Notes under the pieces: generated by a model
Database searches by the model: none
What the model saw: only the letters and a program-made list of their open reading frames with translations
What the model was told of the DNA's origin: nothing
DNA from: Asanoa ishikariensis
GTDB lineage: Bacteria; Actinomycetota; Actinomycetes; Mycobacteriales; Micromonosporaceae
Reading direction: 5' to 3'
Length of the DNA stretch: 64,000 nt
Assembly: GCF_900107455.1 (NCBI RefSeq)
Contig: NZ_FNQB01000002.1
Span: 620,001-684,000 of the forward strand
Position numbers and translations under genes: made by a program
In this document: positions 14,786 through 30,337 of the stretch, one piece after another
How the letters are laid out: the number at the start of each line of letters is the position of its first letter
Numbering within the stretch: position 1 is the first letter of the stretch

Positions 14786-15496
14786 GTGAACCCACTCATC
14801 CGCCGCTTCTCCGCTGCCGCCGGGGCCGTCCTCGCCCTCGCCGTGGCCGTTCTGGTCCTTCCCGCGCCGGCCGTCGCGGCGCCGTTGGGGCAGGTGACGC
14901 TCGATCGGACCGCCGGATCGGTCGACGACAACCCGATCTTCAGCACCGCCGCCGCCAGCGCGCCCTGCCCGACCGGGTTCGGCGCCGACGCGATGGTCCG
15001 GATCGGCCCGCCCGGTGGCCCGTACGCGAACGTCGCCAAACCGCTGACCGCCGGCGGGTACGACCGGAAGGCGGTCTCGGTGAAGCCGAACCGCTCGTTC
15101 GTGATGGCGCTGGGCAACGTCAAGCCGGCCGACGGCGAGTGGCAGGTCGTGGTCGAGTGCTACAGCGTCACCGAAGGCATGCACAAGGAGCGGTTCGTCA
15201 CGCCGATCACGGTGTCCGGGGGACGTTGGCGCACCGGCCGGCCGGCGGGCGGCAACCCGACGCCGACGACGTCCGCCGGTGCCGACGACCAGCCGCCGGC
15301 CACGCCGACGGCGTCCGCGCCGCCGGACGTCAGTGGCTCGGACCAGGCAGCCATCGACGCGCGACTGGCCGCGAACAATCGAACCGGGAAGGCCTCGTTC
15401 GGCAATGCCTGGTGGATCGCCGGACTCGGCGGAGTTCTTTGCGTATTCGGATTGGTTTTCCTGTTGACCCGTCCGCGTCCCGGAAAATCCCGCTGA
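14786..15496 (+). CDS. Membrane-anchored surface protein with an unrecognised two-Cys domain
   Basis: A 236-residue protein: signal peptide (about 1-31, ending AVAA), a domain of about 120 residues, a Pro/Thr/Ala linker, one C-terminal transmembrane helix (WWIAGLGGVLCVFGLVFLL) and a short basic tail. The domain has landmarks CPTGFG, GPPGGPYANVA, NRSFVMALG and VVECYSVTEG, and is shared with the proteins at 24096 and 27653. The two Cys are conserved in all three and could form a disulfide. I do not recognise the domain. The GTG start has TAGACC six bases upstream, a possible leaderless promoter. Confidence 0.75.
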   Translation: MNPLIRRFSAAAGAVLALAVAVLVLPAPAVAAPLGQVTLDRTAGSVDDNPIFSTAAASAPCPTGFGADAMVRIGPPGGPYANVAKPLTAGGYDRKAVSVKPNRSFVMALGNVKPADGEWQVVVECYSVTEGMHKERFVTPITVSGGRWRTGRPAGGNPTPTTSAGADDQPPATPTASAPPDVSGSDQAAIDARLAANNRTGKASFGNAWWIAGLGGVLCVFGLVFLLTRPRPGKSR

Positions 15497-15571
15497 ATTG
15501 GGACGCCAATTCGTCGCCTCATACCACTAGTGCCGCACGGTAGCTGAACGGTGGATACGTCAATACGGGCT

Positions 15572-15594
15572 GTTCATCTTCCGCATGTCTGGCG
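15572..15594 (+). promoter_or_regulatory. Shared upstream motif, copy 2 (before the importer operon)
   Basis: GTTCATC, 8 bases, then GTCTGGCG, about 75 bases before the first gene of the importer operon. All 15 fixed or semi-fixed positions match copy 1 at 14714. Confidence 0.35.
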
Positions 15595-15669
15595 TGTGCA
15601 CGACGCGTCGCGCCGAGTCATGGGCCATGCGGAATCTGGTGCCGCACGCGGACAACGAAGGGACCGACG

Positions 15670-16131
15670 ATGCAGCGTTCCCGATTCGTCTTTCTGGCCC
15701 TGCCGATGCCGGACGGCAATGCGACAACCGCCGACCGGACGCCGGCCGAAGGGATCCTGTGGATGCTGGTCTCGCCTAACAATCGGCCGCTTGGGCGCGG
15801 TACGACCTATCACGAGTCGTACGCGGAATGCCTGGGTTCGGTAGAGCTCATGAAGGCCAACGCGCATCGCGTCGTGCCGGTCGAGACGACCGTGGAACGC
15901 ACCGGCCAGTGGAGTTGGCGGATCGAGCTCGACGGCACGGCGGTGGCGGCGTCCAGCCGCTCGTACCTGCGCACCCGGGAATGCGCCTACAACCTGGCCA
16001 AGTTCATGGAGGCGCTCCCGACGGCCGACATCGTGGCCGGCACGCGCAGCGCGCGGCGCGGCCGCCAGCGGCCCGAGCCGTCGCCGGTCTGGCGACGCGG
16101 TGAGCGACTACGCGGCGGGTTGGCCGGCTGA
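15670..16131 (+). CDS. Small protein with a YegP/DUF1508-like region
   Basis: A 153-residue soluble protein with no signal peptide. Residues about 30-120 (ILWMLVSPNNRPLGRG ... WSWRIELDGTAVAASSRSY) follow the pattern of the YegP/DUF1508 fold (an exposed strand pair ending in an 'A.S..Y' turn, then a helix with a Cys). The function of that fold is unknown. The C-terminus is basic. The stop overlaps the PstC ATG (TGATG), so it is translationally coupled to the importer genes. ATG chosen with AAGGGA upstream. Confidence 0.65.
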   Translation: MQRSRFVFLALPMPDGNATTADRTPAEGILWMLVSPNNRPLGRGTTYHESYAECLGSVELMKANAHRVVPVETTVERTGQWSWRIELDGTAVAASSRSYLRTRECAYNLAKFMEALPTADIVAGTRSARRGRQRPEPSPVWRRGERLRGGLAG

Positions 16132-17186
16132 TGGTGCTCCTCGAGGACTCCCGGGCGACCGTGACACCGTCCACTCCGGATGGACCGGATGACGAGCCGC
16201 GGGCGGTGGTCACCCGGCTGCCCACCAGCGACCGGGTGTTCCGGGGCGTGGCCCGGGTGGCGGGCTCCGCCGTGCTGGGCATCATGCTGCTGGTCGGGCT
16301 GTTCCTGAGCGTGCAGGCCTGGCCCGCGGTGCGCAAGGCCGGCTGGGGCTTTCTCACGACGCAGGACTGGGACACCGAGGGAAACCACTTCGGCGTCGCC
16401 GGCGTGCTCGTCGGCACGATCCTGATCGCCCTCGTCGCCATCACCATCGCACTGCCGCTGGCGATCGGCACCGCGCTCTACATCTCCGAGTACGCGCCGC
16501 GCCGGATCGCGCCGCTCCTCGTCAACCTGGTCGACCTGATGGCCGCGGTGCCCAGCGTCGTCTACGGCATCTGGGGCTTCTTCCTGCTCCAGCCGCACCT
16601 GCTGGTCGTCGGCAACCAGGGTGAGGGGCTGCCGCGCTGGCTCACCACGTACTTCGGCTGGATCCCGCTGCTCTCGGTCGACGAGTACCAGCCCCGGGAC
16701 CCCGAGGCGAGTGCCAGCCGGTTGACCTCCTCGACGTTCATCGCCGGGATCGTGGTGGCGATGATGGTGACCCCGATCATCGCCTCGGTGATGCGCGAGG
16801 TGTTCGCGCAGGCGCCACCGGGGGAGCGGGAAGGCGCGTACGCGCTGGGCGCCACGAAGTGGGGCATGATCCGCTCGGTCGTCCTGCCGTTCGGCCGGGG
16901 CGGCATGATCGGCGCGACCATGCTCGGCCTCGGTCGCGCGCTCGGCGAGACCATCGGCGTCGTCCTGATCATCTCGATCGGCTTCGTCATCCAGCCGCAC
17001 ATCCTGCAGAACGGCGGCGGCTCGATCTCCGCCCTGATCGCCTCGCGCTACCAGGAGTCCACCGCCATCGGCGTCGCCGCTCTGATGGGCGCCGGGCTCG
17101 TCCTGTTCGCCATGACCCTGGTCGTGAACCTGCTGGCCGGCGTGATCATCAGCCGCAGCCGGTCGGGCGCGTCGAGCGAGGCCTGA
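16131..17186 (+). CDS. pstC: Phosphate-type ABC importer permease PstC
   Basis: A 351-residue permease with six predicted helices. The EAA loop, which docks on the ATPase, is EGAYALGATKWGMIRSVVLP, followed by GLGRALGETIGVVLIIS, both diagnostic for PstC. IYISEYAPRR and LVDLMAAVPSVVYGIWG are also PstC signatures. It forms the membrane channel with PstA. The gene lies in a coupled chain pstC-pstA-pstS whose members overlap or nearly touch; the ATPase gene is 9.5 kb downstream, interrupted by surface-protein genes, which is unusual for a pst locus. Confidence 0.93.
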   Translation: MVLLEDSRATVTPSTPDGPDDEPRAVVTRLPTSDRVFRGVARVAGSAVLGIMLLVGLFLSVQAWPAVRKAGWGFLTTQDWDTEGNHFGVAGVLVGTILIALVAITIALPLAIGTALYISEYAPRRIAPLLVNLVDLMAAVPSVVYGIWGFFLLQPHLLVVGNQGEGLPRWLTTYFGWIPLLSVDEYQPRDPEASASRLTSSTFIAGIVVAMMVTPIIASVMREVFAQAPPGEREGAYALGATKWGMIRSVVLPFGRGGMIGATMLGLGRALGETIGVVLIISIGFVIQPHILQNGGGSISALIASRYQESTAIGVAALMGAGLVLFAMTLVVNLLAGVIISRSRSGASSEA

Positions 17187-17187
17187 G

Positions 17188-18438
17188 ATGACGACGACCA
17201 TAGAACCTCGCACCACGCTCCCGGAGCGCGCCGCGGACGCCGGCCACGAGGTGCGCCGCTCGACCGGGTCGACCCGCAAGGCCGACCTGTACGTCGCCCT
17301 CGGCGCCGCCTGGGGCTCGCTCGCGCTGACCGCGCTGCTGTTCACCCGCCTCGCGCCGTTCGACGGCACGCTCGGCTTCGTCGTGCTCGCGTTCGTCTTC
17401 TTCGTCGCGTTCTACGGGCTGCTGGTCGGGCTCGACGAGCGCGGGCCGACGGTGCGCGACCGGATCGCGGCGGTCCTCGTGCACGGCCTCGCCGTGCTCA
17501 TGCTGATCGCGCTCGTCGTGGTGGTGGTGTTCACCGTCTATCGCGGTCTCGACGCCCTGGGCCACCGCAACTTCTACACCCAGGACATGCGCGACGCGGG
17601 ACCGCTTCAGCCGCTGTCGATCGGCGGCATCCGGCACGCCATCCTCGGCACGCTGGAGCAGATCTCGATCGCACTGGCGGTCACCGTGCCGCTCGGCGTC
17701 ACCGCCGCGGTCTTCCTGGCGGAGTTGCCCGGCCGGTTCAGCCGGTTCGTGCGCACGATCGTCGAGGCGATGACCGCCCTGCCCTCGGTGGTCGCCGGCC
17801 TGTTCGTCTACTCGTCGGTCATCCTGCTGCTCAACCAGGCCAAGGACCGGCTCCCGGAGGAACTGCGCTGGCTCGCGGTCGGCAAGTCCGGCTTCGCCGC
17901 GTCCCTCGCGATCAGCGTGATGATGCTGCCGATCGTGATCCGCGCGGCCGACGTGGTGATCCGGCTGGTGCCCGGAACGCTGCGCGAGGCGTCGCTGGCG
18001 CTGGGCGGCTCGCAGTGGCGCACGGTCTGGTACGTGGTGCTGCCGACCGCCCGGTCCGGCCTGATGACCGCGATCATCCTGGGCACCGCGCGCGGCATCG
18101 GCGAGACCTCGCCGGTGCTGCTCACCTCCGGCGTCACCGCGTACACGAACGCGAACCCGATGCGGGAACCGCAGATCTCGTTGCCGTTGTTCGTCTTCAA
18201 CTCCGTCACCCGGCCCGACGCGGGAATGATCTCGCGCGGGTTCGGCGCGGCGGCCGTCCTGATGTTCCTCGTGCTCTTTCTCTTCGCGGTGGCCCGCATC
18301 ATCGGCGGCCGCCCAGCGGGGCAGTTGGGCCGGGGCCAGCGGCGGCGCCGGGCCGGGCGGTCCTATCGCGACGCGGTGCGGTTCGCCGGCCGCGAACGAG
18401 CCAGAGTCACCAACCGCGACGATGAGGTCAGCACATGA
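17188..18438 (+). CDS. pstA: Phosphate-type ABC importer permease PstA, N-terminally extended
   Basis: A 416-residue permease, about 100 residues longer than typical PstA. The core has LPGRFSRFVRTIVEAMTALPSVVAGLFVY, the EAA loop REASLALGGSQWRTVWYVVLP and LGTARGIGETSPVLLTSG, all PstA hallmarks. The extra N-terminus carries two additional hydrophobic segments (about residues 30-55 and 58-80), separated from the normal first helix by a short charged loop. One base separates it from pstC, and it overlaps pstS by ATGA. Confidence 0.92.
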   Translation: MTTTIEPRTTLPERAADAGHEVRRSTGSTRKADLYVALGAAWGSLALTALLFTRLAPFDGTLGFVVLAFVFFVAFYGLLVGLDERGPTVRDRIAAVLVHGLAVLMLIALVVVVVFTVYRGLDALGHRNFYTQDMRDAGPLQPLSIGGIRHAILGTLEQISIALAVTVPLGVTAAVFLAELPGRFSRFVRTIVEAMTALPSVVAGLFVYSSVILLLNQAKDRLPEELRWLAVGKSGFAASLAISVMMLPIVIRAADVVIRLVPGTLREASLALGGSQWRTVWYVVLPTARSGLMTAIILGTARGIGETSPVLLTSGVTAYTNANPMREPQISLPLFVFNSVTRPDAGMISRGFGAAAVLMFLVLFLFAVARIIGGRPAGQLGRGQRRRRAGRSYRDAVRFAGRERARVTNRDDEVST

Positions 18439-20033
18439 ACGTCAGAGCCCTGGTCGCCGCCGCGGTCGCGGTCGCCGTCACGGCGCTCGTTCCCGCACAG
18501 GCGGCAGTCGCCGCCGCGCCCCGGCGCGTGCCGATCAACGGTGCGGGATCCACGTGGAGCTCCAACGCCATCGACAACTGGCGGCGCAACGTGTTGCAGC
18601 GCCAGTTGTACGTCAACTTCCAGCCGACCGGTTCGACGGACGGCCGCAACCAGTTCCGTAATGCCACTGTGGACTTCGGTGTCTCCGAGATCCCCTACGG
18701 CCTGCGGGACGCCTTCGGCGGCGTGGACACCGCACCGCCGCGCAAGTTCGCCTACATGCCGATCGTGGCCGGCGGCACCGCGTTCATGTACAACCTGAAG
18801 ATCGCCGGCCGGCAGGTGACCAACCTGCGCCTGTCCGGCGACGTCGTGGCGAGCATCTTCACCGGTGCGATCAAGCGCTGGAACGACCCGAAGATCAAGG
18901 ACGACAACCCGGGGCTGGCATTGCCCAACCGGCGGATCGTGCCGGTGGTGCGGCAGGACGGTTCCGGCACCAGCGCGCAGTTCACGCTCTGGATGAGCAA
19001 GCAGTATCCGAGCATCTGGAACGCCTACTGCGCCAAGTTCGGCAAGAAGGCGCCGTGCGGCATCACGTCCGCCTACCCGTTCCGGTCGTCCGACGGGTTC
19101 GTCGGCCAGCAGGGCTCGACCGGCGTCACCGGCTACGTCCAGCAGGCCAACGCCGAGGGCGCGATCACCTACGTCGAGTACTCGTACGCGATCGGTGCCC
19201 GGTTCCCCGTCGTCAAGGTGCGCAACGCCGCCGACTACTACGTCGAGCCGACCGCGCAGAACGTGGCGGTGGCGCTGACCAAGGCGCGGATCAACACCAA
19301 CCAGGGCTCGCGCGAGTACCTCACCCAGATCCTCGACGACGTCTACCGCTTCACCGACCCGCGGGTCTATCCGCTGTCGTCGTACTCCTACATGATCGTG
19401 CCGACCGAGACCGGCCGCGGCATCAACACCGACAAGGGCTTCACGCTCGGGGAGTTCGCCAACTACTTCCTCTGCGAGGGCCAGCAACAGGCCGACGTGC
19501 TCGGCTACTCGCCGCTGCCGAAGAACCTGGTCGAGGCCGGCTTCGCGCAGGTGAGCAAGATCCCGGGAGCGGTCAAGCACGGCGGGTCGCTTTCGCAGTG
19601 CAACAACCCGACGTTCTCCAGCGACGGCTCCAACACCCTGGCCAAGACGGCGCCACAGCCGTCGCCGTGTGACAAGCGAGGCTCGAAGCAGACCTCCGCC
19701 GGCACGGCGGGTGCGAAGGTCGAGACTCCGGTGCTCGCCGCCGCGCGCTGCACCGGCAGTGGCGGCGGGGGCAGCCAGGGCAACACGCCGCAGAACGGCG
19801 CGACCGTGGGACCGTCGGCCTCGGCCAGCGCGGGCCCCGGCGGCGGGGCGACCGGCGGCGGCGGGAGCGGCGACGGCGAACTGATCGGGGCGGTGCCGGT
19901 CGACCTGACCGGCCGGCCCGGCTGGGGGCTCCAGCAGACCGCGATGCTGATCGCCGGGCTGGTCGTCCTCGGTCTCGTGCTGGTGCCCCCGCTGCTGGCG
20001 CAGCGGTGGCGGTCGCGTGGAGGACGGCGATGA
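18435..20033 (+). CDS. pstS: PstS-like substrate-binding protein with C-terminal membrane anchor
   Basis: A 532-residue extracytoplasmic binding protein. The signal peptide is about residues 1-31. Phosphate-binding-protein motifs are INGAGSTWSSNAI, FQPTGSTDGRNQF, DFGVSEIPYG, and PVVRQDGSGTSAQFTLWMS, whose DGSGT contacts phosphate in PstS. Unlike lipoprotein PstS, it has no lipobox. Instead a Gly/Ala/Ser linker (about 430-480) leads to a C-terminal transmembrane helix (TAMLIAGLVVLGLVLVPPLL) and RWRSRGGRR tail. Translationally coupled to pstA and to the next gene by ATGA overlaps. Confidence 0.85.
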   Translation: MNVRALVAAAVAVAVTALVPAQAAVAAAPRRVPINGAGSTWSSNAIDNWRRNVLQRQLYVNFQPTGSTDGRNQFRNATVDFGVSEIPYGLRDAFGGVDTAPPRKFAYMPIVAGGTAFMYNLKIAGRQVTNLRLSGDVVASIFTGAIKRWNDPKIKDDNPGLALPNRRIVPVVRQDGSGTSAQFTLWMSKQYPSIWNAYCAKFGKKAPCGITSAYPFRSSDGFVGQQGSTGVTGYVQQANAEGAITYVEYSYAIGARFPVVKVRNAADYYVEPTAQNVAVALTKARINTNQGSREYLTQILDDVYRFTDPRVYPLSSYSYMIVPTETGRGINTDKGFTLGEFANYFLCEGQQQADVLGYSPLPKNLVEAGFAQVSKIPGAVKHGGSLSQCNNPTFSSDGSNTLAKTAPQPSPCDKRGSKQTSAGTAGAKVETPVLAAARCTGSGGGGSQGNTPQNGATVGPSASASAGPGGGATGGGGSGDGELIGAVPVDLTGRPGWGLQQTAMLIAGLVVLGLVLVPPLLAQRWRSRGGRR

Positions 20034-22660
20034 ACCGCGTCAGTGCGGCCGGCCTGGTGCTGGCCCTGGCGGCCGGGCTCGCGCTGCTCGGCGTGGGCGA
20101 CCCGACACCGTCCCTGGCGTCGCAGGACGTCCAGTCCGGCGGGGCCGACACGGGCTCGGCGATGACCGTGCACGGGCGGAAAACAGCTATCGAAGACTTC
20201 TCCGGCCTCGCGGTCACGGTCTCGCAGACCCGCGACCTGACCAACCAGGCGGTCGAGGTGTCCTGGACCGGTGGCGTGCCGTCGCCCCGGACCCGGTCGC
20301 TCGGCTTCGACTACCTCCAGATCATGCAGTGCTGGGGCGATCCAGGGGATGACGAGAACGACCCCGACGGTTTGGCGTTCCGGGAGACCTGCCAGTTCGG
20401 CATGAACCTGCCGTCGCCGTTCACCGGGCGCTCCGGGGCCACGTCGCAGGCGGCCAACTCCCGCTCGATGACGTTGGGTCTCGCGAACTATCCGTCGCGG
20501 GACGAGAAGGAAGTCGCGCCAAAGGACGTGGACGATCCGGCGACCAAGGACGTCGACGAGCGGGACGCGCCGGGCACGCTGCGGACCGACGCGAAGATGA
20601 TCCCGTTCCGCACGGTGCAGGGCATCCGGTTCCGCGACGGCAGCCCCTACAAGCCGTACCGGATGATCATTAACCCGGCCACGGGCAATACCACCGAGGA
20701 AACCGACGTCGACGTGCTGCGCGAGTCGTTCGCCGAGCCGTCGACCAACGAGGTTCCGTGGGCGCTGACGTCGGGCGACGGCACCGGGCGTGCGGTCTTC
20801 GAGATCCAGGACGCCGGCCGGGCGCCGGACCTCGGGTGTGGCGCACCGACGGTGGAGCGCAACGGCAAGTCGGTCGCGGGACCGAAGTGCTCGCTGGTGA
20901 TCGTCCCGCGCGGGCGCAACAACCCGTACACGGGTGAACAGGTCAACCTGGCCGAGGGTGCCGTGCACGGCAGCCCGTTCCTGCCGGCCAACTGGGTCAA
21001 CCGCATCGTCGTGCCGCTGGACTTCCGACCGGTGACCGGCCTCTGCCCCCTCGGCCTCTCGGAGCGACGCACGGCCGGCACCGAGATGGTGGCCGAGGCG
21101 GTCACCGCCTGGCAGCCGGGAGTCTGCGCCAACAACGGCCCGCTCATCGGCTACTCGGCGATCGGCGACGGTGAGGCCGCCCGGCAGGTGCTGCTGACCG
21201 GCGCCGGCTCACCCGGACTGGTGTTCACCGCCGATCCGGTAGTGCCGGGGTTGGGGCAACCACCGGTGGTGCACGCGCCGGCGACGTTGAGCGGCATCGA
21301 GATCGCGATGAACGTCGACGCCAACATCGTCGACCCCAATCAGGCCGACGGGAAGGTGCCGCCCGAGGTGCTGGCGATGGCCGGCTCGGCGCTCAAGGAC
21401 GTCAAGCTGACGCCACGGCTGATCGCCAAGCTGCTGACGCAGACGTACCGCAACGACGCCAAGGACCCCGACGCGTTCCCGAACCTGCCCAACGGCCACA
21501 AGGCGGCGAACCCGGCGTCCATCAGGGACGATCCCGAGTTCCGCGTCATCAACCCGGTCTTCGACTGGTGGGACCGCACCCAGTCGTCGACCCTCGACGG
21601 CCTGATGGTCTCGCTCGGCAACTCGGCCGGGAGCCGTCAGGTGTGGCGGTGGCTGCTCGCCGACCCCGAGGCCGGGCCCTTCCTCGCGGGTAAGCCCGAC
21701 GAGAACGGCATCGTGATCAACAAGTGGTACAAGGGCCTCACCAACACCGGACTCGACACGTTCCCCAAGGCCGACCCGAAGTGCACCGAGGTCACGTTCG
21801 ACAAGATCGCCTATCCGCACTGTACGCAGAACCTGCGGCCGTACCTGGGAAGCATGTCCGAGGCGGCGTTGCAGACGCTGCGGGCCGACACCAAGGGCCG
21901 GCTGCCGGTGTTCAACGAGCTCACGCTGCCGCCGAACTACGACCCGGTGCCGCGGCGGGCGCCCGGATACCGGTTCGCCATGTCGATCACGGAGTCGGCG
22001 TCGGCGGCTCGCTACGGCCTCTTCCCCGCGCAGCTCTGCAAGCCGCTGCGTGACACCAAGAAGAAGCTGCTCGCGGGCGTCGACTGCCGCACGCCCACGG
22101 ACACGGCGCTGCAGAAGGCCGCGGGGACCGCGCAGAGCTCGACGGTGCCAGGGGTGAAGGTGATCGACCCGACGGTCGCCTGGAAGACGCCGGGCGCGTA
22201 CCCGCTGGCGATGATCAACTACGCGGTCGGCAACCTCTGGGAGCAGGCGGACGCACGCAAGGACTACGCCGCGCTGCTCCGGCAGATCGCCGGCGAGGGG
22301 CAACAGCCGGGCCTCGGGCGCGGTCAGCTACCTGAGGGCTACGCGCCGCTGCCGCAGGACCTCCGGTCGCAGACGATGAACGCGGCCGCCCTGCTCGAGT
22401 TCGGGTCGCCGACGCCACCTCCTCCCTCCTCGCTCACCCCGCCGCCGGGTGTGCCCGCCACCGGTCTGCCGCCCTCGCTCGGGCCCGTCGCGGCCTCGCC
22501 CGCGCCGCCGATCGCGCGGGCGTCCGCGACGACTCCGGGCGGCCCAATGGGGATGATGCGGAACCTGCTGATCATCGTGCTCGTGGTCGGGCTCGTCGGC
22601 GGGGTGATCGGACCGGTCCTCAAGCGCATGGGCGCCGGCCGGGGCGGTCCGAGCTCATGA
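20030..22660 (+). CDS. Giant membrane-anchored extracytoplasmic protein, PstS-like in part
   Basis: An 876-residue protein with a signal peptide (about 1-30) and a single C-terminal transmembrane helix (NLLIIVLVVGLVGGVIGPVL) after a Pro-rich linker (about 795-840). The N-terminal half (VTVSQTRDLTNQAVEVSWTGG) is beta-like and unrecognised. The middle has GYSAIGDGEAARQVL, ATLSGIEIAMNVD and VKLTPRLIAKLLTQTYRND, which resemble the strand-helix pattern of PstS proteins where 'LkLt...la.If.G' follows the substrate loop. I cannot assign a ligand. It overlaps pstS by ATGA and closes the first transcription unit of the cluster. Confidence 0.65.
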   Translation: MNRVSAAGLVLALAAGLALLGVGDPTPSLASQDVQSGGADTGSAMTVHGRKTAIEDFSGLAVTVSQTRDLTNQAVEVSWTGGVPSPRTRSLGFDYLQIMQCWGDPGDDENDPDGLAFRETCQFGMNLPSPFTGRSGATSQAANSRSMTLGLANYPSRDEKEVAPKDVDDPATKDVDERDAPGTLRTDAKMIPFRTVQGIRFRDGSPYKPYRMIINPATGNTTEETDVDVLRESFAEPSTNEVPWALTSGDGTGRAVFEIQDAGRAPDLGCGAPTVERNGKSVAGPKCSLVIVPRGRNNPYTGEQVNLAEGAVHGSPFLPANWVNRIVVPLDFRPVTGLCPLGLSERRTAGTEMVAEAVTAWQPGVCANNGPLIGYSAIGDGEAARQVLLTGAGSPGLVFTADPVVPGLGQPPVVHAPATLSGIEIAMNVDANIVDPNQADGKVPPEVLAMAGSALKDVKLTPRLIAKLLTQTYRNDAKDPDAFPNLPNGHKAANPASIRDDPEFRVINPVFDWWDRTQSSTLDGLMVSLGNSAGSRQVWRWLLADPEAGPFLAGKPDENGIVINKWYKGLTNTGLDTFPKADPKCTEVTFDKIAYPHCTQNLRPYLGSMSEAALQTLRADTKGRLPVFNELTLPPNYDPVPRRAPGYRFAMSITESASAARYGLFPAQLCKPLRDTKKKLLAGVDCRTPTDTALQKAAGTAQSSTVPGVKVIDPTVAWKTPGAYPLAMINYAVGNLWEQADARKDYAALLRQIAGEGQQPGLGRGQLPEGYAPLPQDLRSQTMNAAALLEFGSPTPPPPSSLTPPPGVPATGLPPSLGPVAASPAPPIARASATTPGGPMGMMRNLLIIVLVVGLVGGVIGPVLKRMGAGRGGPSS

Positions 22661-22720: not shown

Positions 22721-22848
22721 GAACGCTTCACCCCGAAACGTTCGTCCGGTCGCGGTATCAGCGCACCGCCGGCGCTCGCGACGATGGCTTCGCCTCGTCC
22801 GTCAGCAGGGCGGCTACGAGCACCTTGCCCCGCAGAAAGGGAGCACAC

Positions 22849-24024
22849 ATGAAGGTCAAGAACGTCGGTCGGGTGGGCGCTGTCCTCCTGGCCGCCGCGC
22901 TTGGGGCCGCTGCCATGGCTGGACCGGCCATGGCCGACCCGAGCTCGGCGACCGATTTCCGGTCGCTGACCGGTGTCGGCTCGGACACCACGCAGGACGT
23001 CATGAACGGCTTCGGCAACGCGTACGCCCCGAACGGCACGAAGGTTGTCGCCTCCTGGGACGCCCGCGGCACCTCGCCGATCAAGACCAAGGCGACCAAC
23101 TGCGTGTTCCCGCGGCCGGACGGCTCGGGTGCGGGTCGTCAGGCGCTGCGCGCGTCGGAGGGTGAGAACCTGGGCGGCACGCACGGCGGCCCCGGCTTCT
23201 TCAACGGCGCCGCGGTGCAGGGTTGCGCCGACTTCGCCCGCTCGTCGTCCTACGGTGGCCCGACGCCGCCCGCGACGGCCGGCAACTACACCTACATCCC
23301 GTTCGGCGTCGACGCCGTGGGCCTGGCCCGCAACGTCAACGGCGACATCCCGGCGAACATCTCGTTCGCCCAGGTGCAGCGGGTCTACAAGTGCTTCGAC
23401 ACCGCGATCGCCGGCAACACGGTGACCCCGCGGATGATCCAGGCGGCCTCCGGCACCTGGCAGTTCTGGACCGGCAAGATGGGCATCACCGAGGCTGAGA
23501 TCAACCTCGGTGACTACAGCTGCCTGGCTCGCGACGCCGACAGCAACCCGGCCACCCCGGCGCAGCCCAACCTCGAGCGCGTCCAGGAGCACGACGGCAC
23601 CGTCCTCAACAACAACCTGAACCAGATCGTGCCGTTCTCGGCCGGTCAGTTCATCGCGCAGAGCAACGTCGCCACCATCGCGACCGCGACGGGCGTCACC
23701 GTGACCGACCGGCGTGGCCAGGCGGCCCTGACCGGCATGCGGATGCCCGGCCAGGCCATCCAGCAGCCGATCGTCGGCGGCGTGCTCAACACCGCGTTCC
23801 CGCTGCGTCGTGACGTCTACAACGTCGTGCCGACCAGCAAGCTCGCCAACGCCGCGATCGACGCCGCGTTCACCGGTGCCGACTCGGCGCTGTGCACCAG
23901 CACGGTCAACGTGGGCGGCACCAACCGCAGCCTGATCGAGCTCTTCGGCTTCGGCAAGCGCACCGCCAATGTCGACCTGCTCAACGCCGCCTGCGGCTCG
24001 ACCGACCTCAAGGCCAACAGCTAG
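22849..24024 (+). CDS. Secreted substrate-binding-like protein
   Basis: A 391-residue secreted protein with a 31-residue signal peptide (ending AMA, then DPSSATD) and no anchor. It opens LTGVGSDTTQDVMNGFGNAY, close to the 'GSDTTq..m' opening of phosphate-type periplasmic binding proteins, and has YTYIPFGVDAVGLARNVN, ISFAQVQRVYKCFDT and FSAGQFIAQSN, again in binding-protein order. The ligand is unknown. It has a strong GAAAGGGAG ribosome-binding site and its own upstream region, and a perfect hairpin follows it, so it may be made in greater amount than its neighbours. Confidence 0.75.
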   Translation: MKVKNVGRVGAVLLAAALGAAAMAGPAMADPSSATDFRSLTGVGSDTTQDVMNGFGNAYAPNGTKVVASWDARGTSPIKTKATNCVFPRPDGSGAGRQALRASEGENLGGTHGGPGFFNGAAVQGCADFARSSSYGGPTPPATAGNYTYIPFGVDAVGLARNVNGDIPANISFAQVQRVYKCFDTAIAGNTVTPRMIQAASGTWQFWTGKMGITEAEINLGDYSCLARDADSNPATPAQPNLERVQEHDGTVLNNNLNQIVPFSAGQFIAQSNVATIATATGVTVTDRRGQAALTGMRMPGQAIQQPIVGGVLNTAFPLRRDVYNVVPTSKLANAAIDAAFTGADSALCTSTVNVGGTNRSLIELFGFGKRTANVDLLNAACGSTDLKANS

Positions 24025-24039
24025 TCCGTCACACCCCGA

Positions 24040-24070: not shown

Positions 24071-24095
24071 CGTCGACTTGAAGGAGTCGCCAGCG

Positions 24096-25736
24096 ATGCA
24101 CAGGCGTCGTCTGACCCGGCTGGTCGCGCGAGCGGCTCTGCTCGCGGCCGCCATCACCAGCATCGCGGCCGGCACCCTGGTCATCGCGACCAGCGGCGCC
24201 AGCGCCGCCAGCCTCGGTGAGGTGAAGTTGTCGCAGCCGCAGGGCAACGTGAACGACACACCCATGTTCGCGTCAGCCACGTCCGGGCCATGCCCGACGG
24301 GATACGGCGAGAACGCCGGGTTGCGGGTCGGCCCCGCTCCCAGTGGTCCCTTCAACAACCTCGCGGTCGCGCTCGGCGGTGGCGGGTTCGACGAGGCGGA
24401 CGTCGAGTTCGCGGGCGAGACGGCGCCCAACCGGTCGTTCACCACGGCGATGGGTGGCGTGGCGCCGGCAGAGGGCGACTGGATCGTCATCATCGAGTGC
24501 TTCAGCCTCACCGAGGGCCGGAACACGGACGAGTTCCGCACCCCGATCAAGGTCTGCGGCGCCCGGTGGGCGGTCGGGAACGCCTGCCCCGGCAAGGACC
24601 TCACCTTCACCACGCTGACCGTCTCGCCGAGCTGGTCGGTGCTGGACGACGCCCCGGTGACCCTGACCGCGGCGGTGACGCCGGTGACGGTCGGCGGCGA
24701 GGTCGAGTTCTTCTACGACCCGCCGGGTGACGAGACGAAAGCGTCGATGGGCAAGGTCGCGGTGGCCGACGGCAAGGCGGTACTGACGACGAGCGACATC
24801 CCGGTCAACGAGACCGGCGAGTTCTTCGACCTCTCCGCGGTGTTCACCCCGATCGGTGAGTACCAGGCGTCGACCAGCAACGTCGTCAAGCTCAACGTGC
24901 GACAGCAGGCCGACCCGATGCCGACCACCGTCGCGATCGAGGTCACGCCGAAGAACCACGCCGACGTCGGCGCGAACGTGACCATCGCGGCGACGATCGA
25001 GCCGGCGAACGCGCTGGGCAAGGTGGCGTTCTCCTACCGGCGCGGTGCGGACCCGACGGACGTTCCGATCGGTGCCGAGGTGCCGGTCGACCAGCACGCG
25101 GCCGTCAAGGAGACCACTGAGCTGCCGGGCGGCAAACTGACGATCACCGCGACGTTCGTACCCGGCGAGGGCTTCGGACCGTCGACCGTGTCGCTGCCGG
25201 ACTATCAGGTCGGCGAGGCGGTGAAACAGGCGACCACGGTCTCCCTGAGCCCGAGCAAGCAGAGCCCGCAACCGGCGAACGCCCCCATCACGCTGACGGC
25301 GACCGTCACGCCGGGCGGCACGGCCGGTGCCGTCCAGTTCAAGAACGAGACGGCCACCCTCGGCGCGGCGGTCACGGTCGTCAACAACGTGGCCAAGCTG
25401 GACCTCGTCAACATCCCGGTCGGCACGTACGTGTTCACGGCCGAGTTTCAGCCGACGGACACGGCCACCTTCGCCAACTCCACGTCGGCGCCCGTGAACT
25501 TCGTGATCACCGATGCGGCGGGCGGCGACGACCCCGACGGTGACGATCCCGACGGCGACGACCCGGGTGGTGACGACGACGGTGGCAACCTGCCCACGAC
25601 CGGTGCCCCGATCGTCGCTGTCGCGATGGTCGGCGCCGGTCTGGTCGGCGTCGGTGCGCTCGCGATGACCACCGGTCGTCGGCGCCGGCTGTTCCCGTCG
25701 GTGCCCTGGTTGGACCGCCACGATGACGACAACTGA
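24096..25736 (+). CDS. LPXTG-anchored surface protein with two-Cys domain and Ig-like repeats
   Basis: A 546-residue surface protein. After a signal peptide (about 1-37) comes the same two-Cys domain as at 14786 (SLGEVKLSQPQGNVNDTPMF, CPTGYG, NRSFTTAMG, IIECFSLTEG). Three Ig-like domains of the bacterial Big_3_5 type follow (for example TTVSLSPSKQSPQPANAPIT and GGTAGAVQFKN). Then come an acidic DDPDGDD stalk and the sorting signal LPTTG (residues 499-503) with a hydrophobic helix and RRRR. The ATG has AAGGAG upstream. Its end overlaps the pseudosortase gene by 14 bases. Confidence 0.85.
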   Translation: MHRRRLTRLVARAALLAAAITSIAAGTLVIATSGASAASLGEVKLSQPQGNVNDTPMFASATSGPCPTGYGENAGLRVGPAPSGPFNNLAVALGGGGFDEADVEFAGETAPNRSFTTAMGGVAPAEGDWIVIIECFSLTEGRNTDEFRTPIKVCGARWAVGNACPGKDLTFTTLTVSPSWSVLDDAPVTLTAAVTPVTVGGEVEFFYDPPGDETKASMGKVAVADGKAVLTTSDIPVNETGEFFDLSAVFTPIGEYQASTSNVVKLNVRQQADPMPTTVAIEVTPKNHADVGANVTIAATIEPANALGKVAFSYRRGADPTDVPIGAEVPVDQHAAVKETTELPGGKLTITATFVPGEGFGPSTVSLPDYQVGEAVKQATTVSLSPSKQSPQPANAPITLTATVTPGGTAGAVQFKNETATLGAAVTVVNNVAKLDLVNIPVGTYVFTAEFQPTDTATFANSTSAPVNFVITDAAGGDDPDGDDPDGDDPGGDDDGGNLPTTGAPIVAVAMVGAGLVGVGALAMTTGRRRRLFPSVPWLDRHDDDN

Positions 25737-26685
25737 CGTTCAGGCATCGGCACCGCCGGCACCTAGCGTGCCGGCGGTGCCGCCGCCGTCCCCGCCCCCG
25801 TCCCGGCCGCCGAACCTCGGGCTGCAGGTCGTCGGCACCGCGTTCACCATCGTCGCGGTGCTCGCCATCGGGCTGATCGCGCACCTGACCGCGGTCTCGT
25901 GGCTCCAGTACCAGCGTGACCAGCAGACGCTGTTCGCCGACTTCCGCGCCGAGCTCAAGCTGGGCACCGCGCCGGTCGGCCAGTACCGGGTGACGTACGA
26001 GCCCGACGGCTCGCCGCGGCCGGAGGAACTGGTCGAGCCGGGCAGCCCCGTGACGTGGCTGGAGATTCCGAGCATCGGCCTGAGCGCGGTGGTCGTGGAG
26101 GGCACCAGCGGCGACGTGCTGCGCGCGGGACCGGGGCACCGGCGGGACACCGTGCTGCCCGGGCAATCCGGTGCGAGTGTCCTCATGGGACGGCAGGCGG
26201 CGTACGGCGCGCCGTTCCGGGACCTCGAAATGCTGATGAAGGGTGACCCGATCCACGCCACCACCGGCCAGGGACGCGCCGAGTACAAGGTGACCGGCAT
26301 CCGCCGGCCGGGTGAGCCGGAGCCGCCGGAGCTCGTGCCGGGTGCCGGTCGGCTGACGCTGATCACCGCGCACGGCAAGGCGTTCGACCCCGAGGGCACC
26401 GTCTACGTCGACGCCGAACTGCTCTCGCCCGCGCAACCCACCCCGGCACGCAAGTTCGGCGAGGGCTCGCTGCCCACGGCCGACCGGGTGATGGCGACCG
26501 ACTCGTCCGGCTGGCTCTGGGCGATGTTGTGGGGCCAGGCGTTGCTGCTCGCCGCGATCGCGGTCACCTGGCTGCGCACGAGATTGAGCGGCTGGCACGC
26601 CTGGATCATCGGCGCGCCGGTGCTCGCCTTCCTCGGTCTCGCCGTCGCCGACCAGGCCGCGCGCCTGTTGCCCAACCTGCTCTGA
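25723..26685 (+). CDS. Class E sortase relative lacking the catalytic triad
   Basis: A 320-residue membrane protein: Pro-rich cytoplasmic N-terminus, helix at about 35-57, sortase domain about 105-235, and two C-terminal helices (about 263-283 and 292-310). The sortase fold is clear: WLEIPSIGLSAVVVEG, AGPGHRRDTVLPGQSG, YGAPFRDLEML and LTLIT. Active class E enzymes have AGHR and TTC; here the segments read MGRQ (Arg157 for His) and LITA (Ala216 for Cys), and the downstream Arg (usual form RLIV) is replaced in GTVYVD. It should be unable to transpeptidate. It sits directly after an LPTTG protein, so it may bind sorting signals without cleaving them (inference). Confidence 0.85.
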   Translation: MTTTDVQASAPPAPSVPAVPPPSPPPSRPPNLGLQVVGTAFTIVAVLAIGLIAHLTAVSWLQYQRDQQTLFADFRAELKLGTAPVGQYRVTYEPDGSPRPEELVEPGSPVTWLEIPSIGLSAVVVEGTSGDVLRAGPGHRRDTVLPGQSGASVLMGRQAAYGAPFRDLEMLMKGDPIHATTGQGRAEYKVTGIRRPGEPEPPELVPGAGRLTLITAHGKAFDPEGTVYVDAELLSPAQPTPARKFGEGSLPTADRVMATDSSGWLWAMLWGQALLLAAIAVTWLRTRLSGWHAWIIGAPVLAFLGLAVADQAARLLPNLL

Positions 26686-26701
26686 GAGAAAGAGATACGA
26701 C

Positions 26702-27505
26702 GTGACCCAGACGCTGACCGCCCCGCCGATCGGCGGAACCTTGGACGCCAGGGCGATCTCGGCCTGGTTCGGCGACCACAAGGTGCTCGACCGGGTCTCG
26801 CTGGTGATGCCGGCCGGCAAGGTGACCGCGCTGATCGGCCCGTCCGGCTGCGGCAAGTCGACCTTCCTGCGAATCCTCAACCGGATGCACGAGCTCGTGC
26901 CGAGCGCGTCGCTGGCCGGCGAGGTGCTGCTCGACGACACCGACCTGTACTCGTCCGAGCGCCGCGTCACCGACGTACGCCGCCAGGTCGGGATGGTGTT
27001 CCAGAAGCCGAACCCGTTCCCGGCGATGTCCATCTTCGACAACGTGCTGGCCGGCCTGAAGCTGACCGGCACGCGGGCCTCCCGCTCGACCCGGGACGAC
27101 ATCGTCGAGGAGACGCTGACCCGGGCCGGACTCTGGAAGGAGGTGCGCGACCGGCTGCGTTCGCCCGGCGGCGCGCTCTCCGGCGGCCAGCAGCAACGGC
27201 TCTGCATCGCGCGCTCGCTGGCCGTACGCCCGCGGGTCTTGCTGATGGACGAGCCCTGCTCGGCCCTGGACCCGACCTCCACCCGGCGGATCGAGGAGAC
27301 CATCGCCGAGCTCGCGGGCGAGGTGACCATCGTGATCGTCACGCACAACATGCAGCAGGCGGCCCGCGTCTCGGACCTCTGCGCGTTCTTCCTCGCCTCG
27401 CACGGAACCCCTGGCGCGATCGTCGAGCACGGGCCGACCGACGTCATGTTCGACTCGCCGCGCGACGAACGGACCAACGACTACGTCAACGGTCGCTTCG
27501 GGTAG
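26702..27505 (+). CDS. pstB: Phosphate-type ABC importer ATPase PstB
   Basis: A 267-residue ABC ATPase. Walker A GPSGCGKST (residues 46-54), PstB-type NRMHELVPSASL and QVGMVFQKPNPFPAMSIFDNV, signature LSGGQQQRLCIARSLA, Walker B VLLMDEPCSALDP, and switch His in VTHNMQQAARVSD are all intact. The C-terminus NDYVNGRFG matches PstB (usual form EDYISGRFG). GTG start, 16 bases after the pseudosortase. It should power PstC/PstA, whose genes lie 8-10 kb upstream in the same orientation. No phoU gene is nearby. Confidence 0.94.
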   Translation: MTQTLTAPPIGGTLDARAISAWFGDHKVLDRVSLVMPAGKVTALIGPSGCGKSTFLRILNRMHELVPSASLAGEVLLDDTDLYSSERRVTDVRRQVGMVFQKPNPFPAMSIFDNVLAGLKLTGTRASRSTRDDIVEETLTRAGLWKEVRDRLRSPGGALSGGQQQRLCIARSLAVRPRVLLMDEPCSALDPTSTRRIEETIAELAGEVTIVIVTHNMQQAARVSDLCAFFLASHGTPGAIVEHGPTDVMFDSPRDERTNDYVNGRFG

Positions 27506-27652
27506 CCGAAACGGATGAGCCCTTGGCACCAACTGTTTCCCTAGCGCACGTCCGGCGGAGAGATCGGCCTGATGACCGGGACACAGCCGCTGTAAAGCCT
27601 GATCGCGGCCGGTTCACCGGACCCGGCTTGAACTTCTGAGAGGAAGTGATCC

Positions 27653-28849
27653 ATGAGCAAGCGTGTGTTCGCTCGCGCGGCCGCGCTGCTGGGTGCGGCG
27701 ACCATCACGGCCGGCGTCCTGGCGGGTATCGCCAGCCCGGCCCAGGCCGCCTCGCTGGGCGAGGTCACGCTGTCGCAGCAGAGCGGCAGTGTGAACGACA
27801 CCCCGATGTTCGCCACGGCCACCAGCCCGGCGTGCCCGACCGGCTTCGGCGAGAACGCGTCGCTGCGCATCGGCCGCCCCGGCGGTCCCTACAGCAACCT
27901 CGCGGTCGCCCTCGGCGGCGGCGGGTTCGACGAGGCGCCGATCTCGGTCAACTCGAACCGGTCCTTCACCACCGCGCTGGGCGGCACCGCGCCGGCCGCC
28001 GGTGAGTGGTGGGTCATCGTCGAGTGCTACTCCCTCACCGAGGGCCGGCACGTCGACGAGTTCCGCACCTCCATCGTCGTCAACGGCACCACGTGGCGGA
28101 TCCCCGTCGCCGAGGCGACCACGACCGCCCTGTCGGTCGGGCCGGCCGGTGGCATCGAGCGTGGCCAGGAGGCCACCTTCACCGCCAACGTCACCCCGAA
28201 CACCGCCACGGGCACCGTGGAGTTCAAGCGGGGCACCACGGTAATCGGCTCGGCGTCCGTGACCAACGGCGTCGCGACCTTCGCCACCACCGCGCTGCCG
28301 GTGGGCACCTACCAGTTCACCGCGGCCTTCACGCCGGCGGACGCCACCGCGTTCAAGTCGTCCGTGTCGACCGCGGCGGCGTTCACCATCGCGCCGGGCC
28401 AGACCACCGGCCCGTCGGCCGACGTCGAGATCCTCGCCCCGATCGACCCGGGCGCGTTCAGCCTGGCCGTCGCGGCGCCGACCACCTCGCTGTCCGGTGG
28501 CGTCGTCGGTGGCACCGCCAGCGGCACCCTGCCGAAGGCGACCGTGACCGACCTCCGCGGCACCAACGTCGGCTGGTCGCTCACCGGTCAGCTCGAGGAC
28601 TTCGCCCAGGGCACCAGCACCATCGCCAACAGCAAGCTCGCCTGGACCCCGTCGGCCGCCAAGGTCTCGGGCTCGGGCGCGGTTACCGCTGGCGCCGCTG
28701 CTGACCTCGGCGACACCCGCACCCTCTGCTCGGCCGCCTCGGGCGCCAGCGCCGGCACGTTCACCTGCGACGCCGGCCTGACGCTGTCCATCCCGGACGA
28801 CGTGGCACCGGGTGAGTACGCGGCGACCCTGACCCTGACGCTGGCCTGA
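27653..28849 (+). CDS. Surface protein: two-Cys domain, Ig-like repeat and WxL-like domain
   Basis: A 398-residue exported protein without a membrane anchor. After the signal peptide (about 1-33, ending AQA) comes the two-Cys domain (SLGEVTLSQQSGSVNDTPMF, CPTGFG, NRSFTTALG, VIVECYSLTEG), then one Ig-like Big_3_5 repeat (ATFTANVTPNTATGTVEFK). The C-terminal domain, about residues 260-398, is WxL-like: KATVTDLRGTNVGWSLTG, with WSL at 308-310, and ends LSIPDDVAPGEYAATLTLTLA. The next gene encodes a DUF916-type partner. It has an AGAGGAAG ribosome-binding site. The 147-bp upstream gap holds a GTTCA...TGAAC inverted repeat at 27612-27633. Confidence 0.8.
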   Translation: MSKRVFARAAALLGAATITAGVLAGIASPAQAASLGEVTLSQQSGSVNDTPMFATATSPACPTGFGENASLRIGRPGGPYSNLAVALGGGGFDEAPISVNSNRSFTTALGGTAPAAGEWWVIVECYSLTEGRHVDEFRTSIVVNGTTWRIPVAEATTTALSVGPAGGIERGQEATFTANVTPNTATGTVEFKRGTTVIGSASVTNGVATFATTALPVGTYQFTAAFTPADATAFKSSVSTAAAFTIAPGQTTGPSADVEILAPIDPGAFSLAVAAPTTSLSGGVVGGTASGTLPKATVTDLRGTNVGWSLTGQLEDFAQGTSTIANSKLAWTPSAAKVSGSGAVTAGAAADLGDTRTLCSAASGASAGTFTCDAGLTLSIPDDVAPGEYAATLTLTLA

Positions 28850-28860
28850 TCGGTGTCAAC

Positions 28861-28893
28861 GGCGGAGGTGTCGCAGCCTGCGGCACCTCCGCC
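28861..28893 (+). terminator. Hairpin between the WxL-like and DUF916 genes
   Basis: GGCGGAGGTG (28861-28870) pairs with CACCTCCGCC (28884-28893); inner bases CGCAG/CTGCG extend it. Located 12 bases after the stop, 39 bases before the next ATG. Probably an attenuator giving more WxL-like protein than its membrane partner. Confidence 0.5.
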
Positions 28894-28931
28894 ACCCCAC
28901 GTACCACCGTCCTCTAACCGGAGCCGCCCAG

Positions 28932-29981
28932 ATGAACACCAGAACTGTCAACGGACCCCGACGCGCCTGGCGTGCCGGGGTGTTCGTCGCTGTGGCGGCG
29001 ATGCTGCTCACCTCCGGGCCGATGCCGTTCGCCTCCGCCGCACCGGCCGCCCGGCGTGCCGAACGTCCTACCTGGACGGTCGTGCCGGGAAGCCCCACCG
29101 GACCCAAGGGGCGTAAGCAGTTCGACTACGAGCTCAACACCAAGGAAGCGATCACCGACTGGATCTCGGTGAGCAACCTGGGCACCAAGCCGCTCACCGT
29201 GGACCTCTACGCGACGGACGCGTTCACAGCGGCGGACGGCGGCTTCGCGCTGCTGCCCCGCAACCGGAAGCCCGACGGCGTCGGCACCTGGATCAAGCTG
29301 CCCAAGGCGTCCACCACGCTGCCGGTCGGCAAGCGCTCGGACATGCCGTTCACGCTGTCGGTGCCCGCCGGAGCGACGCCGGGTGACCACATCGGCGGCA
29401 TCATCGCGTCGATCACCGAGCAGCAGGTCAACGAGAAGGGTCAGCGGGTCGACGTCGAGCGGCGGGTCGCCGCCCGGGTCTACCTGCGGGTCACGGGACC
29501 GCTCACGCCGGTGGCCGCGGTCACCGCCGTCGACGTCGACTACGAGAACCCGATCATCCCGCTGCCCGGCGGCAAGATGGCGGTCACCTACCGCGTCGCG
29601 AACCACGGCAACGTGCGCCTGTCCGGCACCGTGCGCGTGCGGGTCGACGGTCCGTTGGGCGTACGGCTGGCCAGCAGTGACCCGATCACGGTCGCGGAAC
29701 TGCTGCCCGACTCGGAGCTTCGGCTGCGGCAGGAGTTCTCCTCGGTGTTCCCGGCCGGCCGGCTGACCACCGCCGTCGACTTCAACCCGACGACCAACCG
29801 CGAGACGCTTCCCTCGGTGTCCGGACAGGCCGGCACGACCGCCGTACCCTGGCTGATCCTCGCCCTGCTGGTCGTCGTCCTCGCCCTGGTGGTGTACCGG
29901 ATCTTCCTGCTCCGCGCCCGCCGGCGTCCCGCGCCCACCTTCCTCGACGGCGCCGGCCAGGCCGTCCCGACGGCGCCGTGA
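28932..29981 (+). CDS. DUF916-type (WxL-interacting) membrane-anchored protein
   Basis: A 349-residue protein with signal peptide (about 1-38), DUF916-like extracytoplasmic domains and one C-terminal helix (VPWLILALLVVVLALVVYRIFLL) with a basic tail. Typical segments are FDYELNTKEAITDWISVSNLG, TWIKLPKASTTLPVGKRSDMPFTLSVP, PGDHIGGIIASI, VAARVYLRVTGP and YRVANHGNVRLSGTV. Family knowledge: such proteins tether WxL proteins to the envelope. It overlaps the next gene by GTGA. Same type as the protein at 9551. Confidence 0.8.
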   Translation: MNTRTVNGPRRAWRAGVFVAVAAMLLTSGPMPFASAAPAARRAERPTWTVVPGSPTGPKGRKQFDYELNTKEAITDWISVSNLGTKPLTVDLYATDAFTAADGGFALLPRNRKPDGVGTWIKLPKASTTLPVGKRSDMPFTLSVPAGATPGDHIGGIIASITEQQVNEKGQRVDVERRVAARVYLRVTGPLTPVAAVTAVDVDYENPIIPLPGGKMAVTYRVANHGNVRLSGTVRVRVDGPLGVRLASSDPITVAELLPDSELRLRQEFSSVFPAGRLTTAVDFNPTTNRETLPSVSGQAGTTAVPWLILALLVVVLALVVYRIFLLRARRRPAPTFLDGAGQAVPTAP

Positions 29982-30337
29982 AGCGGGCCGCGTTCGTCCT
30001 GCTGGTCGCTCTAGGTGTTCCGGCGGTGGCCGCCGTGCCCGGACCTCCGGCGCAGGCCGCGGTGATCGCCCCGACGCCGGGTCCGAGCGGTGCCCGGGTC
30101 GACCTGACCGTGCGCATCGCACCGAACCCGAGCACCACGCCGACCACGCCGCCACCCACCACCGCACCGCCGACGACCGAGCCGCCGGACGAGGATCCGG
30201 GCGGTGGCGACCTGCCGAGGACCGGCGCCGCGATCATGATGATCGCCCTGGTCGGCGGCCTGTTCGTCGCCGGCGGTGTGTTGCTGCGGGTGCTGGCGCG
30301 GCGCCGCGCCGACGCGGAACGCTGGATGGCCCGCTGA
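29978..30337 (+). CDS. Minimal LPXTG protein (Pro/Thr stalk only)
   Basis: A 119-residue protein made almost only of a signal peptide (about 1-25), a short segment (ARVDLTVRIAPNPS), a Pro/Thr/Glu-rich stalk, and an LPRTG sorting signal at residues 79-83 with a hydrophobic helix and RRRADAERW tail. There is no room for a folded domain of usual size. GTG start overlapping the DUF916 stop. It may act as a wall-attached plug or spacer, or as a subunit held by the pseudosortase; both are inference. Confidence 0.75.
   Translation: MKRAAFVLLVALGVPAVAAVPGPPAQAAVIAPTPGPSGARVDLTVRIAPNPSTTPTTPPPTTAPPTTEPPDEDPGGGDLPRTGAAIMMIALVGGLFVAGGVLLRVLARRRADAERWMAR

Follow-up and report, generated by a model that had tools for sequence, protein, structure and literature searches.

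What is a phosphate importer doing among the genes of cell-surface proteins? This question is raised by a locus of Asanoa ishikariensis (RefSeq assembly GCF_900107455.1, contig NZ_FNQB01000002.1, positions 620,001 to 684,000 of the forward strand). We refer to this whole analysed stretch of 64,000 nucleotides, from a genome of 9.09 Mb, as the window, and give all coordinates as window positions. In the cluster in focus, 14786..30337, the genes of a Pst-type importer are interleaved with those of surface proteins and of a sortase relative. The original prediction for this DNA saw one system in these genes. Gene-by-gene profile matches bear out that all the genes it named are present on one strand (+), and the many stop-start overlaps that it described are found at 15670/16131, 17188/18435, 18435/20030, 24096/25723 and 28932/29978. 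We give about even chances to the reading that the locus encodes a second, specialised Pst importer forming part of a surface assembly that spans the wall; assembly, transport and regulation we infer from comparison of sequences and predicted structures.

Linkage of importer and surface genes

Far from being peculiar to A. ishikariensis, the block is conserved as a gene set across Actinomycetota. We scanned a genome collection with a non-Pst gene, the sortase relative (hereafter pseudosortase), on the basis of a close eight-row alignment, as a wider sortase alignment held no sufficiently conserved stretch. The scan found 419 stretches, of which 378 were confirmed and the best 80 kept. All of these 80 loci contain a Pst gene at strict scores, and the pseudosortase gene adjoins a pstB scoring above 250 bits in 75 of the 77 loci where it was called. 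The loci come from Asanoa, Phytohabitans, Micromonospora, Plantactinospora, many Streptomyces, Actinoplanes, Dactylosporangium, Jiangella, Kineosporia, Cryobacterium, Promicromonospora, Amycolatopsis, a metagenome-assembled genome (MAG) of Acidimicrobiales and others. The nearest pseudosortase among the matches listed, that of Asanoa hainanensis, is 92% identical. Since the same set recurs in many genera, the association between pst and surface genes is not due to chance.

We counted the members of the set in those loci that exceed 19 kb, 62 in all. The counts were first made with a loose 25-bit cut-off, which could admit other ABC ATPases as pstB, and were then redone with strict cut-offs, with little change. 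Loose and strict counts were 61 and 61 for a large binding-like protein (bigSBP), 61 and 61 for a secreted PstS relative (SBP3), 61 and 60 for pstB, 60 and 60 for the pseudosortase, 59 and 57 for the membrane-tethered PstS (PstS1), 53 and 48 for the model of head, Ig-like and WxL domains, 51 and 50 for pstA, 40 and 40 for pstC (lowered by the 10 kb flank, which often cuts off the gene), 34 and 32 for DUF916, and 14 and 14 for the small protein hyp153. They rely on a simple gene caller of our own, which loses genes in low-GC contigs and may misplace starts; low-GC cases were redone. From these counts the core comprises eight genes, namely those of PstC, PstA, PstB, the membrane-tethered PstS, the secreted PstS relative, bigSBP, an Ig-like surface protein and the pseudosortase, with WxL and DUF916 proteins as accessories. 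Two pairs of loci come from the same genome (L045 and L123, L046 and L129). In the analyses below, duplicate genomes were excluded from the head-domain count and identical sequences from the set of 92 sortases, and duplicates were retained in the count of 93 sortases and in the ligand rows of PstS1 and SBP3.

The best 80 of the 378 confirmed places are skewed to close relatives, and we therefore repeated the linkage on 396 genomes drawn evenly from Actinomycetota. A bigSBP above 64 bits was present in 10 of them, and in 10 out of 10 the sortase relative lies on the same contig, at most 8 kb away. Five of the 15 bigSBP matches at E 1e-10 (G007, G034, G095, G116 and G372, with 45.9-52.2 bits) were taken as ordinary PstS proteins and dropped on score; none of these five genomes has a listed sortase match at 1e-10. 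The sortase profile matches 230 of the 396 genomes at 1e-10, mostly through ordinary sortases by score, and 14 exceed 140 bits. In an order-level sample of 150 genomes, bigSBP (P0006) matches 19, which include the genome of the window and represent 15 of 56 genera. Its weakest matches, in G125 and G068, sit in ordinary pstS-pstC loci, and the neighbourhoods of the clear ones show the same gene set. No P0006 match was found among 72,556 plasmid records. The best 80 loci and the 396 genomes strongly support that the genes form one system, with the core surface genes linked to pst. Surface genes lying mostly away from pstCAB would speak against it, and for the core surface genes we found the opposite.

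Both permeases, PstC (16131..17186; TIGR02138, 244 bits versus a cut-off of 196) and PstA (17188..18438; TIGR00974, 199 versus 193), exceed the NCBI curated cut-offs, which PstB (26702..27505; TIGR00972, 338 versus 343) misses by 5 bits and PstS1 (18435..20033; TIGR00975, 203 versus 205) by 2. The cluster PstB copies of relatives score around 327-347 bits against a cut-off of 343.2. A PstB of at least 356 bits, above the cluster copies, is present in 19 of 20 carrier genomes, and Asanoa iriomotensis shows the cluster copy only. A PstB tree places 41 of 43 cluster rows in one group (support 87) and 11 canonical rows in another (support 90). L157 and the cluster rows L052 and L058 are unplaced at the root, and L179 and L180 fall among the cluster copies, L180 being identical to the copy of L102. 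A simple picker gave usable rows for this tree from 14 of 30 census loci, and its labels need three changes rather than one. Most cluster PstB proteins thus form a separate lineage next to the canonical one. In the window's genome, two canonical pstS genes above 300 bits lie near contig ends (C7:2432-3379 and C8:2227-3177) and partial pstB genes at contig starts (C4:1-309 and C6:1-309); this assembly may have divided two canonical pst operons between contigs. A Pfam scan of the 26 proteins of window 9010-39071 found no PhoU, the relatives not being scanned for it.

Binding proteins, pseudosortase and surface proteins

The original prediction described two of the three binding-like proteins as anchored to the membrane at the C-terminus and the third as secreted, and hydropathy agrees, with helices in two and none in the third. 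PstS1 matches solved phosphate-binding proteins (best E 1e-45) and, in 78 of 79 rows, has its C-terminal helix behind a long linker with a median of 117 residues (77-203 in the 65 rows measured). Its phosphate site can be followed through the residues S38, D56, R135, S139, G140 and T141, in what we take to be the numbering of E. coli PstS. Among 79 rows, the S38 loop has Ser in 77, R135 is conserved in 71 (His in 8), S139 in 74 and G140 in 79, and T141 is Thr or Ser in 75. SBP3 (22849..24024) matches phosphate-binding proteins with E 6.5e-14, and its SDT, GS..G, RSS and SGT loops are nearly invariant in 85 rows; it has Ser at the site of the key Asp and an extra Arg. These residues support phosphate binding by PstS1 and SBP3.

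The case is different for bigSBP (20030..22660), whose C-terminal membrane helix is present in 64 of 65 rows. Its predicted structure (pLDDT 85.5, pTM 0.84) matches PstS structures across about 450-500 columns (Foldseek E 6e-10), and the titles of all 30 matches at E 0.001 or below name phosphate-binding proteins or phosphate transport receptors. None of them was seen to account for its own N-terminal part. In 65 rows, no ligand motif is conserved at the four expected loops, which were placed by eye. The phosphate ligand of the original prediction is supported for PstS1 and SBP3, and not for bigSBP. In one locus (L100, 2472-6221), a single 1250-residue open frame covers both bigSBP and SBP3, either as a fusion or as an effect of assembly. 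The starts of bigSBP (20030), SBP3 (22849) and the Ig-like LPXTG gene (24096) were chosen among candidates.

The pseudosortase (25723..26685) has N- and C-terminal membrane helices and a sortase fold (PF04203, 60 bits versus a cut-off of 26.6). It matches solved sortases, the nearest being 5go5 and 5go6 of class E type, and scores 64.7 bits with the NCBIfam class E model, under the cut-off of 160. The catalytic residues of the class E enzyme SrtE1 are His251, Cys320 and Arg329 (PMC5148588). When compared to solved class-E-type sortases, the window protein has GR in place of the GH motif, TA in place of the TC motif, and has lost the Arg of the last strand. The same holds in 92 distinct cluster sortases, where the His column has Arg in 91 and Lys in 1, the Cys column Ala in 81, Ser in 7, Gly in 2 and Thr in 2, and the Arg column never Arg. 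An Arg two residues further in the same last strand occurs in 64 of 93 cluster sortases. With its catalytic residues replaced, the protein cannot be a working sortase. Seven other sortases in the window's genome could anchor the LPXTG proteins.

Loss of the catalytic His and Cys follows the pst context. As controls we used high-scoring sortase matches without bigSBP, plus second copies. By eye, His, Cys and Arg are all retained in seven out of seven related sortases outside pst clusters (L201-L205, L207 and L210), three of which (L204, L207, L210) adjoin an ABC ATPase at 49-55 bits, far below the cluster pstB scores. The distant pst-linked sortases L206, L208 and L209, also inspected by eye, have lost His and Cys in three out of three cases, L209 retaining the last-strand Arg. 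Two genomes (G503, G165) each hold one intact sortase plus one dead, pst-linked one. Four of the 14 genomes above 140 bits (G416, G518, G461, G525) have no bigSBP match and carry intact sortases outside any pst cluster, the G461 contig being 5.4 kb long. The intact sister sortases have similar N- and C-terminal helices.

The surface proteins share a domain that had been noted as a two-Cys-domain family. The family is present, and we correct its description to an Ig-like head common to membrane-anchored, LPXTG or LAXTG, and WxL proteins. In the window, the head occurs with a C-terminal membrane helix (14786..15496), with three Big_3_5 Ig-like domains and an LPTTG sorting signal (24096..25736), and with Big_3_5 and a WxL domain (27653..28849). 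An iterative search over 98 cluster loci, which count the window and leave out two duplicate genomes, identified 113 head proteins in 60 of them: 48 have a sorting signal and a membrane helix, 32 a WxL domain, 15 a membrane helix only and 18 none of these. Within one locus, different anchors thus often carry the same head, and in nine loci the head is fused in one frame with the DUF916 protein. The head domain, bigSBP and hyp153 (15670..16131, with homologues ahead of pstC in other loci) are three families without a Pfam family. The predicted fold of the head-Ig-WxL protein resembles tandem Ig domains; as confidence in the model is low (pTM 0.38), its Ig-like reading rests on weak structural matches. 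In the gene directly before the pseudosortase, a strict [LM][AP]xTG signal occurs in 42 of 69 loci, versus 1 of 271 genes further downstream, and 25 of these 42 signals are LASTG or MASTG. LAXTG is the signal of class E sortases (PMC5148588).

The predicted WxL-like protein and its DUF916 partner are confirmed by Pfam, with 25.2 bits versus 25.0 for WxL and 37.1 versus 27.3 for DUF916/WxLIP (28932..29981, with a C-terminal membrane helix). A small LPRTG surface protein follows (29978..30337; 19.9 bits versus a cut-off of 20). The operon holds one WxL and one WxLIP protein, and no DUF3324 match accompanies DUF916 at E 0.1 in the Pfam scan of the window. About 18 kb away, window 9010-10558 encodes a second WxL-like protein (starting at 9010 and sharing 31% identity with the WxL part of P0011) followed by what is by eye a WxLIP-like protein, neither with a Pfam match at E 0.001. 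WxL and DUF916 had been counted as part of the set; they are present here but accessory, with DUF916 in 32-34 of the 62 loci and WxL/WxLIP genes also elsewhere.

Promoter region and competing explanations

Phosphate shortage probably switches the set on. The PHO-box core is GTTCACC. In Streptomyces, the box consists of two 11-nucleotide repeats (PMC7866108). A count over the 300 bases preceding the operon gave 16 GTTCAC hits on the coding strand and 2 on the opposite one, with 3.75 expected. The motif is present in 15 of 31 loci; seven patterns were tried in this enrichment test. In Micromonosporaceae, a conserved element with a GTTCA[C/T] box, located in the window at 15546..15596 ahead of hyp153, is complete in 7 of 11 aligned rows, and two rows lack it. 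A rank test of PHO boxes over 31 loci gave a combined P of 1e-4, with 6 loci below 0.05; this test is weak, with related loci and one genome that enters twice. The GTTCAC motif upstream of the operon is at most suggestive of PHO-type control.

If the locus encodes a second Pst importer within a surface assembly, secreted SBP3 would catch phosphate in or outside the wall and hand it over to the tethered PstS1, which would swing down to PstCA. The ligand-free bigSBP could serve as a structural dock. The pseudosortase would bind partners, perhaps through sorting signals, without cleavage and so hold surface proteins at the transporter, and WxL and WxLIP, where present, would add a grip on peptidoglycan. 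A narrower version, in which the dead sortase is a docking receptor gripping Ig-like wall proteins uncut and phosphate passes in a trans-wall relay from free to tethered and ligand-free pseudo-receptor and on to PstCAB, seems to us possible but doubtful. The machine had also been described as wall-embedded; sorting signals, WxL/WxLIP and, in some loci, lytic transglycosylase neighbours agree with this, and from them we infer the link to the wall.

Several observations weigh against an importer built into the wall. Colocation shows common use and not a physical complex, and a canonical Pst is also present, so that the need for a second importer is unproved. Distant members retain the gene set and lose its order. 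The gene preceding that of the pseudosortase lacks a strict sorting signal in 27 of 69 loci, and the substrate-binding Tyr of class E sortases may be Arg in the pseudosortase, which would count against binding of sorting signals. The PHO-box evidence is weak, given related loci and seven patterns tried. The window's own promoter region has GTTCAT as its box and, taken alone, does not score (P 0.11), and a clear double box precedes one of the genome's own two canonical pstS genes. Finally, D56 of PstS1 is Glu in 64 of 77 ungapped rows and Asp in 13, a change at a key site that could alter ligand or affinity.

This last point, together with the Ser and the extra Arg of SBP3 and the existing canonical Pst, would also be expected if the importer served another oxyanion or a phospho-ligand such as phosphite, arsenate or an organophosphate. 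We regard this as quite improbable, as the remaining phosphate site is retained and as the best solved relatives are named phosphate-binding proteins throughout for PstS1 and mostly for SBP3. The genes could instead form a phosphate-starvation operon, in which importer and wall proteins are needed simultaneously, for example for wall rebuilding, with no physical link. Regulation alone would account for the promoter-motif enrichment and for neighbouring phosphatase and CYTH-CHAD genes. It sits less well with a gene set retained, though reordered, outside the window's class, with sortases whose loss of His and Cys is confined to the pst context, and with the nine DUF916-head fusions, and we consider it unlikely. 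A surface organelle for sensing, adhesion or attachment, in which Pst parts would read out phosphate or drive remodelling and import would be secondary, is a further explanation that we judge very doubtful. Surface genes do outnumber transport genes in the window, bigSBP lacks ligands, and WxL/WxLIP proteins of Firmicutes have been tied to host binding and virulence (PMC10599100). Against such an organelle stand the anion-binding residues retained in two receptors, PstC and PstA scores above the curated Pst cut-offs, and the absence of DUF916 from 28-30 of the 62 loci.

Neighbouring genes and relation to known systems

Directly upstream of the cluster lies a secreted-looking, PHP/DUF3604 phosphoesterase-like protein (13454..14674, +; DUF3604 35.5 bits, above the cut-off, PHP 22.1, below it), whose membership is doubtful: it has no BLAST match in the 99 other cluster loci, where the upstream side is often cut, and the gene after pstB encodes a different PHP protein in one other genome (L045/L123). 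Slightly further upstream is a sigma-70-type factor with DUF6596 (12166-13386). Downstream follow a PiT-type phosphate transporter (30519..31667, +; PHO4, 307 bits), found beside the cluster in 1 of the 99 other loci (A. hainanensis, L065), and a CYTH-CHAD protein identified by Pfam (32393..33880, +), found in 6 of 99 (2 Asanoa, 4 Cryobacterium). CHAD is linked to polyphosphate. A further ABC importer (35178-37818; SBP_bac_11, a permease and an ATPase with a TOBE domain) is possibly of molybdate type.

Other families recur near the cluster in relatives. A lytic-transglycosylase family lies one or two places after pstB in 11 of 77 loci (L074:11790-12500, L087:9488-10300, L136:11721-12698, L143:2257-3582 and others), with SLT_2 matches in five out of five members scanned, four above the cut-off. 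A lipoprotein family directly follows pstB in 15 of 77 loci, in Streptomyces (for example L083:11725-12465); one of two scanned members has a weak PF04203 match (21 bits versus 26.6), with GH and C motifs by eye. A PhoD-type phosphatase is near the cluster in three of 77 loci (L087, L092 and L095, from two Kineosporia strains and a close MAG); one member was scanned, and that of L087 (10341-11921) lies on the opposite strand. None of these three families was seen in the window. Wall-opening and phosphate enzymes fit a wall-spanning phosphate machine, each in only part of the loci. Two pseudosortase loci occur per genome in Streptomyces shenzhenensis (L101, L103), S. brasiliensis (L088, L117) and S. 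lushanensis (L079, L114), and in the first two species one locus is compact and the other has DUF916 and WxL. Opposite-strand neighbours, by eye phosphomannomutase-like and purine nucleoside phosphorylase-like, are conserved in 19 and 18 Streptomyces loci (for example L082, L094, L140), which suggests a fixed chromosomal place.

The component families are known, and the composite looks undescribed. The cluster resembles the PstSCAB importer in its PstC, PstA, PstB and PstS-family receptors and in most anion-site residues. It differs in having three receptor-like proteins rather than one, a membrane-helix tether, interleaved surface genes, no PhoU in the stretch scanned, and PstB rows that group apart in 41 of 43 cases. 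With the Csc clusters of Firmicutes (PMC10599100, PMC9772566) it shares WxL, a DUF916 partner with a membrane helix and an LPXTG protein; as far as the available parts of these articles describe them, it departs from them in its single operon WxL, the missing DUF3324 match, the fusion of WxL to an Ig-like head, the tie to a transporter and its occurrence in Actinomycetota. The available passages of PMC9772566 speak of Firmicutes, and its main text contains no word that begins with "actino". Its pseudosortase has the fold and nearest solved relatives of class E sortases (SrtE, LAXTG; PMC5148588), and LAXTG/LPXTG partner genes, without the catalytic His, Cys and Arg. The extracellular PstS of Streptomyces and the PstS appendages of Pseudomonas (PMC7866108) likewise place PstS off the membrane, with possible extra roles; these are canonical PstS proteins, for which the available part of the article names no dedicated surface gene set. 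In a full-text search, with most subscription journals outside its scope, no publication among the matches listed concerned, by title or start of abstract, the gene set, a dead sortase, or WxL together with Pst.

A conserved sortase that lost its catalytic residues in the pst-linked branch, while its sisters retain them, would be a physiological pseudoenzyme. Receptors are usually drawn as membrane lipoproteins, and the route of a scarce nutrient through a thick wall to a membrane transporter is poorly understood. The gene set, which many soil actinomycetes have in addition to an ordinary phosphate importer, offers a genetic handle on this question in Streptomyces and its kin; in these bacteria, phosphate also controls antibiotic production.

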